Of a stretch of DNA of 64,000 nucleotides, positions 5,961-51,920 are shown one piece after another (the stretch's first letter is position 1; each line of letters begins with the position of its first letter). The notes beneath the pieces were generated by a model, which had not been told where the DNA came from, made no database searches, and saw nothing but the letters and a program-made list of their open reading frames with translations. The stretch is from a virus. Position numbers and translations under genes: made by a program. The stretch spans positions 1-64,000 of the IMG/VR virus record IMGVR_UViG_3300044611_002115. One strand, 5' to 3'.

Positions 5961-6494
5961 ATGGCTAAGCGAGTAAAAAACACGGTGAAGTTCCGCGACA
6001 GGCGGAAGATCAAGGGCAAAGCGCCCAAGGACGAGACGCTCAAGGACAAGCCGCACGTGGAGGGCAAGCTGGACGACGCAGTGACGACGCGGCACCGCAA
6101 GCAGCGCATGGTGGCGGCGCTCAAGGAGCACTTAGGCATCGTCGCCTATGCGTGCGAGAGCGTGGGCATAGGGACGACGACGCATTACAGGTGGCTCAAG
6201 GAGGACGCGAACTATGCGGAGAAGGTGCTGGAGGCGGAGGACAGAATGATTGGGTTTACGGAGCGCAAGCTGTTTGAGCTTGTGGAGGCGCGTGACCGCG
6301 AGGCGTGCAAGTTCGTCCTAGACCGCAGGGGCAGGAGGCAGGGCTGGGGGCAAGCGCCGCTGGAGCTTAGCTCGCCGCAGGGGGCACCGCTGCGCGTGGA
6401 GCACGGCGTTGACCCGCTGTTCTTAGAGGAGGAAGCACCCGTGTCCGCCCTCGTCTCCATTGTAGCCAAGCTCACGGGGCTGGGGAGGAAGTAG
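5961..6494 (+). CDS. Terminase small subunit (putative)
   Basis: 177 residues from ATG 5961. AAGGAGA lies about 17 bp upstream, a long spacing. Residues 45-85 form a likely helix-turn-helix, with IVAYACESVGIGTTTHYRWL then AEKVLEAEDR, as in small terminases that recognise the packaging site. The C-terminal half ends with a Pro/Glu-rich tail. It lies 4 bp upstream of the large terminase. The N-terminus is Lys/Arg-rich. Confidence 0.75.
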   Translation: MAKRVKNTVKFRDRRKIKGKAPKDETLKDKPHVEGKLDDAVTTRHRKQRMVAALKEHLGIVAYACESVGIGTTTHYRWLKEDANYAEKVLEAEDRMIGFTERKLFELVEARDREACKFVLDRRGRRQGWGQAPLELSSPQGAPLRVEHGVDPLFLEEEAPVSALVSIVAKLTGLGRK

Positions 6495-45180: not shown

Positions 45181-45305
45181 AACGCAGTGCAACCAGCCCC
45201 CAAAAAGGCTCAAACTTCGCACAAAAAGGCACCCAGCAGCGCGTTTGGCGCTCTGGGAGGGTAAAGTCAGCGGGCGCAGGGGGAGGGCGCTACAGGGAGC
45301 CATGA
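45177..45305 (+). CDS. Possible small basic protein made from dispersed element R6
   Basis: 42 residues from GTG 45177, overlapping both neighbours by 4 bp. The sequence (KRSATSPQKGSNFAQKGTQQ) is largely the translated repeat R6. It may be a translated spacer rather than a functional protein. Confidence 0.35.
   Translation: MKRSATSPQKGSNFAQKGTQQRVWRSGRVKSAGAGGGRYREP
45197..45241 (+). repeat. Dispersed ~40-bp element, copy R6
   Basis: CCCCCAAAAAGGCTC then TTCGCACAAAAAGGCACCCA and GCAGCGC. The left part matches sequence left of R4. Confidence 0.65.
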
Positions 45306-45553
45306 GCCAGTATCGCTACATCCACAAGGACGGGAGGGCGTGCGAATGGCTCCCCAGCGGGCGGGGCAGCTACCACGCAATCTGCGCAGCGCTGGGAGAC
45401 GTGGAAGCCAACGACCTGCTGGGGCTTGACGCGGAGACGTGCGAGATGAAGTCGGACGGGGGATACAAGTTCGACGCGGAGCACAAGGCGGAGGTGCTGC
45501 TCATGCGCAGCACAAAGGACGGCAGCATACTTGGAAGGGTGCTGCGCAAGTGA
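45302..45553 (+). CDS. Hypothetical small protein
   Basis: 83 residues from ATG 45302, overlapping the previous stop. YRYIHKDGRACEWLPSGRGS and a C-terminal KAEVLLMRSTKDGSILGRVL. No family recognised. Last gene before the RNA locus. Confidence 0.55.
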   Translation: MSQYRYIHKDGRACEWLPSGRGSYHAICAALGDVEANDLLGLDAETCEMKSDGGYKFDAEHKAEVLLMRSTKDGSILGRVLRK

Positions 45554-45568
45554 CCAACAATTTTACGA

Positions 45569-45772
45569 GGGCAGGTAGCTCAATAGGTGTGGGTGAGTCT
45601 GCGCACAGTGGACGCATGGGAGTCGAGCGACGGCTTCTATCTCATGCGCGAGCGGTGCAGGGCAAGTCCCATATCCCGTCGAGGGATAGAGTAGGTGGTG
45701 AGTGCGGAGCCGCTGCGCACGGAAGGCCAAGCGAGCCACTGATGATTGGAGGTTCGACTCCTCCCCTGCCCA
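45569..45772 (+). ncRNA. tRNA-like structured RNA of ~204 nt
   Basis: Both tRNA ends are present. A perfect 7-bp acceptor stem joins GGGCAGG (45569-45575) to CCTGCCC (45765-45771), followed by discriminator A. A canonical T arm GGAGG-TTCGACT-CCTCC lies at 45748-45764, and a D-arm-like TAGCTCAATAGGT with GCTC/GAGT pairing follows the acceptor. Between them are about 150 extra bases with no normal anticodon arm. Internal pairings include CAGTGG (45607) with CCACTG (45736), CGCATG with CATGCG, GCGCGAGCGG with CCGCTGCGC (one bulge), and hairpin TATCCC-GTCGA-GGGATA. It could be an interrupted or decayed tRNA, or a new tRNA-capped RNA. I see no tmRNA-like tag frame. Confidence 0.7.
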
Positions 45773-45784
45773 CAATTTTCAGTT

Positions 45785-45853
45785 CCGTTGATCGTGGTGT
45801 TCAACGGTTGTGGCGGGGAGGGGTGACACGGGTTGCCCCTCCCTTGCCGCCAC
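45785..45853 (+). other. Two strong hairpins downstream of the tRNA-like RNA
   Basis: Hairpin 1 pairs CCGTTGA (45785) with TCAACGG (45801). Hairpin 2 pairs GTGGCGG (45810) with CCGCCAC (45847) and GGAGGGG with CCCCTCC. No T run follows. They may be a transcript end, processing sites, or part of the same RNA. Confidence 0.6.
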
Positions 45854-45860
45854 TACACGC

Positions 45861-45873
45861 TGCAACAGTTGCA
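45861..45873. repeat. 13-bp palindrome, copy 16
   Basis: Exact copy with central A, intergenic, between the hairpins and the initiator-like gene. Confidence 0.9.
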
Positions 45874-45894
45874 GCGCTTATCATTCAACAAAAG

Positions 45895-45924
45895 ACCCCG
45901 CCCAGCATTTCTGCCGAGCGGGGT
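45895..45924 (-). terminator. Hairpin with T run on the minus strand
   Basis: A 7-bp stem ACCCCGC/GCGGGGT. Read on the minus strand it is followed by CTTTTG, so it could stop antisense transcription. On the + strand it lacks a T run. Confidence 0.4.
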
Positions 45925-45994
45925 GACACATTAGGTTCCCAACGAATAGGAGCGGGGATCATCCCCTGTTTCCGCAACACTGTCAACACGCATT

Positions 45995-47218
45995 ATGGCA
46001 TCAGACTCTTTTTCCAACCCCGTGCACTTCCGCGATTGGTTCCGCGTAGTCATGCGAAACTGGGCGCAGCACTTATCCCCAGCGGAGGCCATGCTTGTGC
46101 TGTTCGTGCTGGACAGGACGATGGGGTGGGGGAAGGAGTGGGAAATTGTCACGTGCCAGCAGATGCAGGACGGCATCTACTACCAGCGGGACGACGGAGC
46201 TGTGGTGGAGGTGGCAGGGGGCATCGGGCTAAGCGCGGACAGGGCGCAGCGCTTGCTCACGGGGCTTGTGGAGCGGGGCGTGCTGCGGGCGCGGGGCACA
46301 GCGGGGCGGGCGCGGCAGCTTGCGCTCAACTACGAGTGGACGCCTGACACGGACATGAAAGTATCCCAGCGCCCAAAGCAGTTGCAGCGCGGGCTGAAAG
46401 TGCCCAAATCAACCCCCGTTAATATAACGGCCACCCCCGTTAATATAACGCCACCCCCCCGTTATATTAACGGACTAAGAGTAGCAAAGCAACAGGACGG
46501 AAACAAAAGAGAACGGACTGCCGCGCGAGAGCGCGGCGAGGGGAGGCTGGCGGAGGTAGCGGACACAGCAGCACAGCGCACGCGGGACAAGCACGCAGCC
46601 AAGCTCTCCCGCCTAGCCAATGCGGACACGCTCAGCCTAGCCTCCCTTTCCTCCGTGTGGGGCGCGGCATGCGCAGCAGCGCACAGCGGGGAGTCACTGC
46701 CCGACGTGAGGCAGAAGGACTTCCTCATCCTGCAAGCGTGCATGCGCAGGCACAGCGCAGGCGAGCATTCCGTGCGCTTCGTTCCCCTGCTGCAATGGAG
46801 CGTGGCGCAGTGGCGCAGCATAGTGAGCGCCTACTTCCGCTGGATGCCCGATGCCCCCGTGCTGCCGGAGCCTCGTTTCTTTGTGCGCTTCATAGACAGG
46901 TTCCTCAACGCGCACTCGCGCTTGGAGGAGCTGGAGCGCTTGCAGAACATGACGACGCGGGAGCAAATGGTCTATCACCTCACGGCGCGCAAGGGCATGT
47001 CACAGGAGGCGGCGGAGCGCGAGGTGGACGAGAAGCTGGGGCTGCTAAGGATCAAGCAGGACATAGAAGCGGAGCGGAAAAAACTGCAACAGTTGCAGTC
47101 GAGCAGCGTGGAAGCTGTGGAGTCAAAACAACGCCTTGCCTTAATGCAGCGGGAAGCTAAGCAAGTCGAGGCGCGGGCGGTAACATTAACCAAAGGAACA
47201 TTCGACACATGGGAATAG
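45995..47218 (+). CDS. Replication initiator-like protein with winged-helix N-terminus
   Basis: 407 residues. Residues 8-110 (FRDWFRVVMRNWAQHLSPAE, then ILS-type helices and GLSADRAQRLLTGLVERGVL) form a winged-helix module as in phage replication initiators. A Pro/Thr linker follows, whose DNA holds three AT-rich palindromic iterons. The C-terminal half is helical and ends in a coiled coil. It is followed by a loader-like gene and the DnaB-like helicase, the order of lambda O-P type systems. It may also relate to DnaD primosome proteins. Confidence 0.65.
   Translation: MASDSFSNPVHFRDWFRVVMRNWAQHLSPAEAMLVLFVLDRTMGWGKEWEIVTCQQMQDGIYYQRDDGAVVEVAGGIGLSADRAQRLLTGLVERGVLRARGTAGRARQLALNYEWTPDTDMKVSQRPKQLQRGLKVPKSTPVNITATPVNITPPPRYINGLRVAKQQDGNKRERTAARERGEGRLAEVADTAAQRTRDKHAAKLSRLANADTLSLASLSSVWGAACAAAHSGESLPDVRQKDFLILQACMRRHSAGEHSVRFVPLLQWSVAQWRSIVSAYFRWMPDAPVLPEPRFFVRFIDRFLNAHSRLEELERLQNMTTREQMVYHLTARKGMSQEAAEREVDEKLGLLRIKQDIEAERKKLQQLQSSSVEAVESKQRLALMQREAKQVEARAVTLTKGTFDTWE
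46416..46473. repeat. Candidate replication origin: three AT-rich iterons
   Basis: CCGTTAATATAACGG at 46416-46430 and, with the last base changed, at 46437-46451. The inverted form CCGTTATATTAACGG lies at 46459-46473. The units are palindromic except at the centre, 21-22 bp apart, and lie inside the initiator gene as lambda iterons lie in gene O. Confidence 0.7.
47085..47097. repeat. 13-bp palindrome, copy 17
   Basis: Exact copy with central A, inside the initiator-like gene, encoding Gln-Gln-Leu-Gln. Confidence 0.9.
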
Positions 47219-49082: not shown

Positions 49083-51920
49083 ATGAACATTGACGAGCTT
49101 GAGACGGAGAACTTGAACGTGGGGGGAAACCCCGACGCGCAGATTGCAGTCGTGTGCGACAGCCCATCACAGAACGTGTGGGCGGCGGGGAACGTGATGA
49201 GCACGCACGCCATGAACGTGTTTGGGCAGCAGGCGAAGGACTGCGGCATGACTAAGGACGACTTCTTTTTCGTCACGTGCTCCCCGCCCATCCCAGAGGA
49301 GCATGCGGTGAGCGAGGGGCGCGTGAGCAAGTTCGTGCAGCCTTACGGGGAGGAGCTGATGCGCACGCTGCAACAGTTGCAGCACTGCAAGCTGGTGATC
49401 TACTTGGGCAAGACAGCGGGGCGGCAGGTGCACGGGCGCAGCATTAAGATCAACTCGCTGCGCGGGCGCTTCCAAAACCTACCCATCAACGGGAGGCAGG
49501 TTCCCGTGCTGCCCATGCTAAGCCCCGCCAACGTGCTGCGCAGGCCGGAAGTGGCGAGCATATTCAACGCGGACTTCCACCAAATCACAGCGTTCCGCGA
49601 GGCGGGCTGGAACGTCAAGCGCTACGAAGCGGCGCGGGTGACGACAAAGTATCAGTGGGTCACAGACCTTAGCGCCATCCTCGCCAACCCTCCCAAGGCG
49701 CTCGCGCTGGATACGGAGACGCGTGGCTTGTGGGGAAAGCCCCTGCTGGCAACAATGAGTTGGGGCAAGGGGCACGGCATCTGCATCCCCTTAGATCACA
49801 CCTATTACACGGACATGACGGAGGCGGACGAGCGCAAGCTGCACGCGCAACTCCGCAATCTGCTCGCCAACCCGCGCGTGGCGGTGGCGGGGCACAACTT
49901 AGGGTTCGACGTGGCGGCGCTGCGGCGCATTAACATTGAGGTGGCGAACTGGTATTGCGACACCATGCAGCTTGCCTTCGCGGCGGACGACAACATGCTG
50001 AGCAAGTCGCTCGCGGATTGCGTGAAGCGCTGGGTGCCGGAGCTTGCGGGCTACAGCGACAGCTTCGACGCCACAGTGGACAAGGAGCACATGGAGCTGG
50101 TGCCGCTGGAAAAGATGCTGCCCTATGCGGCGGGCGACGCGGAGGCCACGTTCCTGCTTGCGCAGCGCCTAGTGAAGCTGGTGAAGGAGGACAGCAGGCA
50201 ATGGACTTGCTTCGTCAAAGTGCAGATGCCCGTGCTGCGGATGTTTGTGGGGATGAAGGAGCAGGGGATACTCATTAACCAAGAGGCGCTGCGCACGCTG
50301 GAGGAGGAGATGGCGGTGAGCGAGCGGGAGCTATACCGCAAGCTCATCCGGCGCGTGCCAGCGGAGGTGAAGCGCAAGCACATTGACAAGGGGCTGGCGT
50401 TTAGCAGGGACGAGTTCGTGCGCGACATCCTGTTCAGCAAGGAGGGCTTCGGCCTAACTCCCGTCGTGTTCACTAAGACCACGAGCATGCTAAAGGGTGC
50501 GGCGCGCATACCCAGCACGAGCGCGAAGGATCACCTGCCGTTTTTTGCAGAGGACAACAGCTTCGTCGTGGACTTGATCCAATACCAGAAGCTCGCCAAG
50601 ATGCGCAGCACCTACGTCGGCAGGGAAAGCAAGCGGGTGGTGACGCGGGTGGTGATGAAGAAGGATGGGACGATGCCAGCGGCGCTGGGGAAGAAGCTGG
50701 AGCGCGCGGGGGTGGAGCTGGACTTAGCGACACGCTCCGCGCTGGTGCAGGGGGTGCGGGCACGCACGCGCAGGCGGGTGCTGGAGTTTGACGACAGGCA
50801 GCTCAACGTGGCGCTGAGCGTGCCTATCGGGGAGGGTGCGGACAACTTGCTGGTGACTGACCGCGACCAACTGTTCCTGTCCCAATACAGCGAGCCGACG
50901 GGGTTCTGGCAGCACATCATGGAGGACGGGCGCATCCATCCCAGCTTCCACCTTCACCGCGTAGTCACGGGGCGCAGCAGCAGCAGCGATCCGAATGCGC
51001 AGAACTTTCCCAAGCGCGGCGCGCTCGCCAAGCAGTATCGCAAAATCTTCATCCCCTCGGACGGATACAAAATTATTGAGGCCGACCTTAGCCAAGCGGA
51101 GCTGCGCATTGCGGCGTGGATGGCAGGGGAGACGACCATGCTGCGCATCTACCGCGAGGGCGGGGACATTCACGCAGCAACAGCGGCGGCGATTCTCGGC
51201 ATCACAATGGAGCGCTTCTCCGCACTCAAGGGCAGCAAGGAGGAGGTGCCCGCGAAGTATAAGGTGGGCGGGTTTGATGGAAAGACGTGGGGCGAGTATT
51301 ATGACTTCAAGCGCTTCCAAGCAAAGGCGGTCAACTTCGGGTTCCTCTACGGCATGGGGTGGAAGACGTTCCGCGTGTATGCGAAAACGGACTACGGCCT
51401 CAACTTGAGCGAGGAGCAGTCCATCGCCATGCGCCGCGCGTTCTTCGCCCTCTACCCCCGCCTCGAAGCGTGGCACAAGAGCATGAGGGCATTCGTGCAG
51501 CTTCACGGCTACGTGCGGGGGCTTCACGGCGCGCTGCGCAGGCTCCCCAGCATCGACAGCGACGACGAGGGCGTGCGGGGCGACTGCGAGCGGCAGGCAA
51601 TCAACAGCCCCGTGCAGCGCTTCGCGTCCGACTTGGGGCTGATTGGCATGTTCCGCTTCTGCGAGAACGCGCCCCGCGACGTTGTGCGCCCGCTCGCCTT
51701 CATTCACGACGCGGCAGTGCTGGAGGCGCGGGAGGACTGCGTGCGGGAGTGCGCAGGGGGAATCAAGTGGGCGATGCAGACGCCCCCGCTGGAGGAGTGG
51801 TTCGGCATCAAGTCTCCCATCCCCATCCTTGCGGACGTTTCCGTGGGGACTTCGCTGGGGGCGACGGAGGAGCTGGACGTGGCAGCAGCCGCGCCAAGCT
51901 GGATCAAAATTCAGTGTTGA
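49083..51920 (+). CDS. Family A DNA polymerase with N-terminal uracil-DNA-glycosylase-like domain
   Basis: 945 residues. Residues 20-165 (IAVVCDSPSQNVWAAGN, FFFVTCSPPIPEE, LVIYLGKTAGRQVHG) resemble the UDG fold. The 3'-5' exonuclease follows, with ALALDTETRG near 206 and VAGHNLGFDVAAL. The polymerase has motif A IIEADLSQAELRIAAW near 663, motif B RFQAKAVNFGFLYG near 743, and motif C FIHDAAVLEA near 872. It is the phage replicase. Palindrome copy 18 is at 49369 and the stop overlaps promoter P7. Confidence 0.93.
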   Translation: MNIDELETENLNVGGNPDAQIAVVCDSPSQNVWAAGNVMSTHAMNVFGQQAKDCGMTKDDFFFVTCSPPIPEEHAVSEGRVSKFVQPYGEELMRTLQQLQHCKLVIYLGKTAGRQVHGRSIKINSLRGRFQNLPINGRQVPVLPMLSPANVLRRPEVASIFNADFHQITAFREAGWNVKRYEAARVTTKYQWVTDLSAILANPPKALALDTETRGLWGKPLLATMSWGKGHGICIPLDHTYYTDMTEADERKLHAQLRNLLANPRVAVAGHNLGFDVAALRRINIEVANWYCDTMQLAFAADDNMLSKSLADCVKRWVPELAGYSDSFDATVDKEHMELVPLEKMLPYAAGDAEATFLLAQRLVKLVKEDSRQWTCFVKVQMPVLRMFVGMKEQGILINQEALRTLEEEMAVSERELYRKLIRRVPAEVKRKHIDKGLAFSRDEFVRDILFSKEGFGLTPVVFTKTTSMLKGAARIPSTSAKDHLPFFAEDNSFVVDLIQYQKLAKMRSTYVGRESKRVVTRVVMKKDGTMPAALGKKLERAGVELDLATRSALVQGVRARTRRRVLEFDDRQLNVALSVPIGEGADNLLVTDRDQLFLSQYSEPTGFWQHIMEDGRIHPSFHLHRVVTGRSSSSDPNAQNFPKRGALAKQYRKIFIPSDGYKIIEADLSQAELRIAAWMAGETTMLRIYREGGDIHAATAAAILGITMERFSALKGSKEEVPAKYKVGGFDGKTWGEYYDFKRFQAKAVNFGFLYGMGWKTFRVYAKTDYGLNLSEEQSIAMRRAFFALYPRLEAWHKSMRAFVQLHGYVRGLHGALRRLPSIDSDDEGVRGDCERQAINSPVQRFASDLGLIGMFRFCENAPRDVVRPLAFIHDAAVLEAREDCVRECAGGIKWAMQTPPLEEWFGIKSPIPILADVSVGTSLGATEELDVAAAAPSWIKIQC
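49369..49381. repeat. 13-bp palindrome, copy 18
   Basis: Exact copy with central A, inside the polymerase gene, encoding Gln-Gln-Leu-Gln. Confidence 0.9.

Follow-up and report, generated by a model that had tools for sequence, protein, structure and literature searches.

A tRNA-like element with a large insert in place of the anticodon arm upstream of replication genes of a tailed phage

Modules shaped like tRNA and joined to other RNA domains occur in tmRNA, in Y RNAs and at plant-virus 3' ends. Such fusions are few, and each has revealed how cells handle the tRNA shape apart from decoding. YrlA and the other bacterial Y RNAs combine a tRNA-mimic module with another RNA domain. What RNase P and the 3' processing enzymes recognise in a tRNA is its acceptor/T-arm half; the anticodon arm is not needed. 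Here we describe an element of 204 nt (45569-45772, + strand) that has the ends and the elbow of a tRNA and about 150 unrelated bases at the position of the anticodon arm. It lies in a window of 64 kb, the whole stretch analysed, which is part of a 77.5-kb virus record. No description of such a tRNA-like phage RNA was found in the literature.

The element and its genomic setting

The window belongs to a tailed phage with 62% GC and almost every gene on the + strand. It carries a gene set of the preQ0/7-deazaguanine type (QueC, radical SAM, GTP cyclohydrolase and gp88) and a replication block of AAA+ ATPase, O-like initiator, DnaB helicase and family A DNA polymerase, the last (49083-51917) with an N-terminal uracil-DNA-glycosylase-like domain. 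The gene order matches that of Rhizobium phages L338C and RHph_I4 and Aeromonas phage HJ05, and the nearest IMG/VR polymerase is 57% identical to that of the window. The host is therefore probably a proteobacterium. The polymerase gene of phage HJ05 is split by about 700 nt (L008, 14083-14777), possibly by an intron or an inserted gene.

The element is intergenic, with an early gene on either side, and is co-oriented with the replication genes for the O-like protein, DnaB and Pol I. Upstream of it, an 83-aa orphan ORF (45302-45553, + strand; coding periodicity with GC3 0.85) has its stop at 45553, 15 nt before the element, and searches of phages, IMG/VR and Pfam turned up nothing related to it; the O-like gene follows downstream at 45995. 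A search for promoters on the + strand found none. Coding periodicity is absent across the element.

At its ends, GGGCAGG (45569-45575) pairs at 7 of 7 positions with CCTGCCC (45765-45771; bpp > 0.97) to form the acceptor stem, and A 45772 stands as the discriminator; CCA is not encoded, and CAA comes after the discriminator. The T arm GGAGG-TTCGACT-CCTCC occupies 45748-45764 (stem 45748-45752/45760-45764, loop TTCGACT). A D-arm-like hairpin spans 45578-45598 (GCTC 45578-45581 with GAGT 45595-45598, all on the + strand), with G18 and G19 in its loop AATAGGTGTGGGT, and U8 and A9 complete the elbow nucleotides. The element thus has the 7-bp acceptor, the T arm with a TTCRANN loop and the D arm with GG of the tRNA family RF00005. 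The 5-bp anticodon stem, 7-nt loop and U33 of that family were not found (110-nt loop, no U33), and the element scored 18.7 bits, below the threshold of 29, on an alternative 5' part.

Scanned for a perfect T arm together with U8 and a perfect acceptor, the window yielded a single match, whereas 60 random 64-kb sequences yielded none. In intron mode, ARAGORN called only the 45569-45772 locus in the window and nothing in 20 random sequences. When a slightly looser scan was run over about 90 phage loci (3.5 Mb of strands), every other match was a tRNA or borrowed the T arm of one, including one extra match paired to a real T arm, and the element was the sole match of about 200 nt standing on its own ends. 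Since neither the first scan nor ARAGORN gave matches in random sequence, the tRNA body of the element is not a product of chance. The first-pass annotation had described tRNA ends around a large insert at the anticodon-arm site, and the intact acceptor, T arm, D arm and chance controls confirm this description.

Folding of the insert and the intron question

Directly after nucleotide 26, TGCGC (45600-45604) can pair with GCGCA (45715-45719) as a possible stem at the anticodon position (45600-45719, + strand), enclosing the 110-nt insert that replaces the anticodon loop (45605-45714). Support for this stem is weak, as a partner for TGCGC turned up in 9.6% of shuffles, and it competes with the inner stems that the first-pass annotation had named. 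In the computed fold, the insert contains a hairpin at 45613-45648, a stem at 45651-45655/45710-45714 and a second hairpin at 45672-45688. An alternative, P2-like closing helix is offered by CAGTGG (45606-45611) and CCACTG (45736-45741), which spans 45606-45741 and adjoins the T arm; inside it lies the stem GCGCGAGCGG/CCGCTGCGC (45646-45655/45710-45718), and TATCCC (45672-45677) and GGGATA (45683-45688) form a further inner stem, all on the + strand. The cloverleaf with TGCGC/GCGCA reached -81.1 kcal/mol, the fold constrained to CAGTGG/CCACTG -83.5 kcal/mol and the MFE -87.4 kcal/mol, so the energies of mutually exclusive folds differ by only about 6 kcal/mol and at least two arrangements are available. 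The stability of the whole 204 nt was unexceptional for 62% GC (z -1.43 against shuffles, z -1.7 when compared with other parts of the genome). All three named inner stems are present in the sequence, but they are weakly supported because this overall stability is not above chance. With several near-equal incompatible folds and ordinary stability in the middle, the acceptor, T arm and D arm are the only well-supported parts of the element.

One proposal of the first-pass annotation was a tRNA gene with a mini-intron, here of 110-120 nt, neither group I nor group II and removed by an unfamiliar route. ARAGORN in intron mode models a tRNA-Arg(gcg) with a 111-nt intron at the locus, and another phage contig, L097, provides a precedent: among its approximately 27 tRNA genes are several whose anticodon region holds a structured insert, some 30-80 nt long. 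Three interrupted tRNAs of L097 (4795-4954, 6645-6791 and 3826-3958; - strand) lie above the tRNA threshold and have no group I match. We scored every possible excision with ARAGORN, with shuffled inserts as controls and tRNAs with inserts from L097 as positive controls, an assay of limited power. The best score of the element was 110.9 in the first run (12 shuffled inserts, 108.0-116.4) and 115.1 in the second (shuffled, 110.1-120.0). For the positive controls the scores were 123.4, 117.4 and 123.5, and their shuffles peaked at 116.3, 118.8 and 121.3; two of the three exceeded every shuffle. Hence, exhaustive excision restored no canonical tRNA beyond the shuffled controls. Nor do the best models agree in their anticodon or excision site; U33 is absent from the canonically placed stem, and no Rfam intron match was obtained even at E = 10. 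This included RF00028 with its P3-P8 core, in agreement with the doubt expressed earlier about a group I intron. A mini-intron is improbable on these results.

Surroundings and descent of the element

The element is flanked by an 8-bp direct repeat, ACAATTTT, at 45557-45564 on the left and 45772-45779 on the right (+ strand). Shared flanks of at least 8 nt have a probability of 0.005 (0.5%) for random 204-nt intervals, and because this repeat flanks the element, a recent insertion is suggested. The repeat could be the target-site duplication of an inserted unit, or could represent two AU-rich cleavage sites.

Two strong hairpins lie 3' of the element (45785-45856, + strand; about 45785-45807 and about 45810-45856). 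They had been noted in the first-pass annotation, and folding upheld them, with 45554-45994 more stable than chance (z -4.10). The palindrome GCTGCAACAGTTGCAGC at 45859-45875 is one of 21 dispersed copies of GCTGCAACWGTTGCAGC (core TGCAACWGTTGCA) in the window, where 0.07 were expected. The copies, also present in the rest of the contig, are 1-5 kb apart, often within genes, and resemble stoperators or partition sites; related phages carry TGCAACCCGTTGCA near the O-like gene. A 13-bp hairpin after an A-rich stretch follows at 45895-45924, and in many relatives the corresponding gap before the O-like gene holds an A-tract and then a strong hairpin (L008, L015, L016, L017, L019, L020, L022 and L025); candidate roles are an origin, an antisense terminator or a leader RNA. 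In the relative L021, a different structured stretch (6038-6160), closed by the long helix GAGTAGGTGTGCAC/GTGCATACCTACTC, takes the same operon position.

Such surroundings would suit a region that acts as DNA, namely a replication origin or a cluster of operators ahead of the O-like gene, in which the tRNA part is incidental. Hairpins and a dispersed palindrome accompany the site, which lies upstream of the initiator gene, and relatives have hairpins here too. However, the shared A-tract hairpin falls outside the element, and a complete tRNA acceptor, T arm and D arm would be left unexplained, which makes a role at the DNA level very improbable. A phage attP in a tRNA gene was considered separately and rejected, as no tyrosine or serine recombinase was present and no GTDB genome had the identical 28-nt 3' end.

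Over its last 28-34 nt, the element shares 91-93% identity with Vibrio tRNA-Tyr genes and with Squashvirus genes annotated as tRNA-Ser. Exact matches to the 3'-end pattern in IMG/VR include tRNA-Tyr genes in three contigs (L096, L098 and L100) and an interrupted one in L097, and the first 15 nt of the element agree at every position with the 5' end of the Squashvirus tRNA-Ser gene. This tRNA-Ser(gga)-like gene is conserved in Squashvirus (L002, L003 and L101, 541-628), has a 12-nt hairpin, CGCAGACATGCG, inserted in its D loop and a 6-nt anticodon loop, and is annotated in some records only.

Homologues were sought by blastn (phages and plasmids), exact patterns (IMG/VR and GTDB contigs), protein neighbours, Pol I relatives and covariance models. 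No homologue was found in the IMG/VR, GTDB, phage or plasmid collections, where all matches were to the tRNA 3' end, although these searches may omit the records nearest to the window's own and close relatives are possible. The identical 28-nt 3' end was found in no genome of the GTDB contig collection. Covariance models of the element run on 50 phage records returned only tRNA genes of unrelated phages, through the shared acceptor and T arm, and noise. Among about 17 related phages read directly, none had a tRNA-like element in the gap before the O-like gene; ordinary tRNA genes are present in 8 of 40 relatives. In the databases searched, the element is thus seen in one genome only.

These results bear on the main rival to a tRNA-derived RNA, a chimeric or decaying pseudogene, now functionless, formed when recombination or an insertion replaced the middle of a tRNA gene of the phage or its host. 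The element is conserved in none of the collections searched, has no functional anticodon arm, an ordinary inner fold and CAA in place of CCA, and the 8-bp repeat at its borders is a hint that it was inserted recently. Yet phage genomes are compact, and perfect acceptor and T stems with an intact elbow are unexpected after long neutral decay, though still compatible with a recent accident. We consider a pseudogene a serious possibility but doubtful; if correct, the element would be a mere curiosity.

A possible tRNA-derived RNA in the replication operon and its comparison with known RNAs

We tentatively prefer, at slightly less than even odds, the reading that the element specifies a structured RNA which descends from a tRNA, does not decode and was inserted into the replication operon. 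It would have kept the acceptor stem, the T arm and the D-T elbow, with a 3' end that most resembles tRNA-Tyr of bacteria and phages, and the anticodon arm and variable region would have been replaced by about 150 nt able to form a multi-branched domain. The element may be transcribed together with the co-directional replication operon. Since RNase P and the 3' end enzymes need only the acceptor/T-arm half, excision from the operon transcript would be the likeliest way for it to work. It is probably cut out by RNase P, which would recognise the tRNA half and cut the 5' side at 45568/45569, while the 3' end enzymes would process the other end. Cleavage would release a stable product of about 204 nt and also split the transcript, and the helicase and polymerase mRNA would thereby receive a new 5' end led by the strong hairpins (45785-45856). 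Transcription, processing and any function are inferred from the sequence; as long as the insert stays in, the RNA cannot serve in decoding.

Several observations favour a tRNA-derived RNA. The middle is not that of a tRNA while the acceptor, T arm and elbow are complete, random sequences gave no matches, coding periodicity is lacking, excision regained no anticodon arm relative to shuffles, and the site is intergenic and co-oriented with the O-like, DnaB and Pol I genes. The likeness of the 3' end to tRNA genes, together with absence at the syntenic gap, is also consistent with derivation from a tRNA. Against it count the single genome, the ordinary inner stability, the near-equal incompatible folds and a + strand with no detected promoter; a recently scrambled tRNA gene would look alike. 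If true, this would be a case in which viruses employ the tRNA-processing enzymes of the host for the production of a stable RNA or for the cleavage of an operon transcript, and the element would offer a natural scaffold to carry RNA domains in bacteria. The first-pass annotation had also offered a tRNA mimic or a new class of phage RNA, and either may apply. That the element represents a new class of phage non-coding RNA, in which a tRNA acceptor/T-arm/elbow module with a large structured domain is matured by host tRNA enzymes and acts as a decoy or as processing 'punctuation' of the replication operon, is unlikely.

No Rfam family reached threshold for the element or its insert, at gathering or permissive settings, so the comparison that the first-pass annotation had proposed gave no good match to a known family. 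A tmRNA, standard or permuted, was also considered. ARAGORN calls a permuted tmRNA at 45679-46017 with the tag DPAQHFCRAG, and the best match by E-value (0.067) was a weak one to beta_tmRNA. However, the Rfam tmRNA models gave 12.7 bits against a threshold of 84, and the call requires a mismatched acceptor (GGGGAGG) despite the perfect partner upstream. The predicted tag falls within a hairpin and belongs to no known type, and a comparable call arose in 2 of 50 random sequences with the same T arm planted. The earlier doubt about tmRNA, for want of a tag frame, is thereby borne out by the Rfam scores and the random-sequence control, and tmRNA identity, which we reject, is extremely unlikely.

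Compared with bacterial and phage tRNA genes (RF00005; tRNA-Tyr 3' end), the element shares the acceptor stem, T arm, D arm and elbow nucleotides but differs in its 204 nt, its unrecoverable anticodon arm and its sub-threshold score. The Squashvirus tRNA-Ser(gga)-like gene of Microbacterium phages resembles it in an identical 15-nt 5' end, 26 of 28 nt at the 3' end and an odd D loop bearing a hairpin of its own, whereas that gene is 87 nt long and has its own anticodon hairpin. Group I intron-containing tRNA genes also carry an insert at the anticodon position, but the insert here, about 110 nt, is under the known group I size, has no Rfam core match and does not restore a tRNA when excised. 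As in tmRNA, though only in how it may work, tRNA-like ends are joined by a long structured body in place of an anticodon arm; the element differs in having no tag frame, no pseudoknot series and no Rfam match at threshold. YrlA and the bacterial Y RNAs differ in that the phage has no Ro60/Rsr (TROVE) partner in the 77.5-kb record, which may be a fragment, and the element has no Rfam match, but the element shares with them a tRNA-like module joined to another RNA domain.
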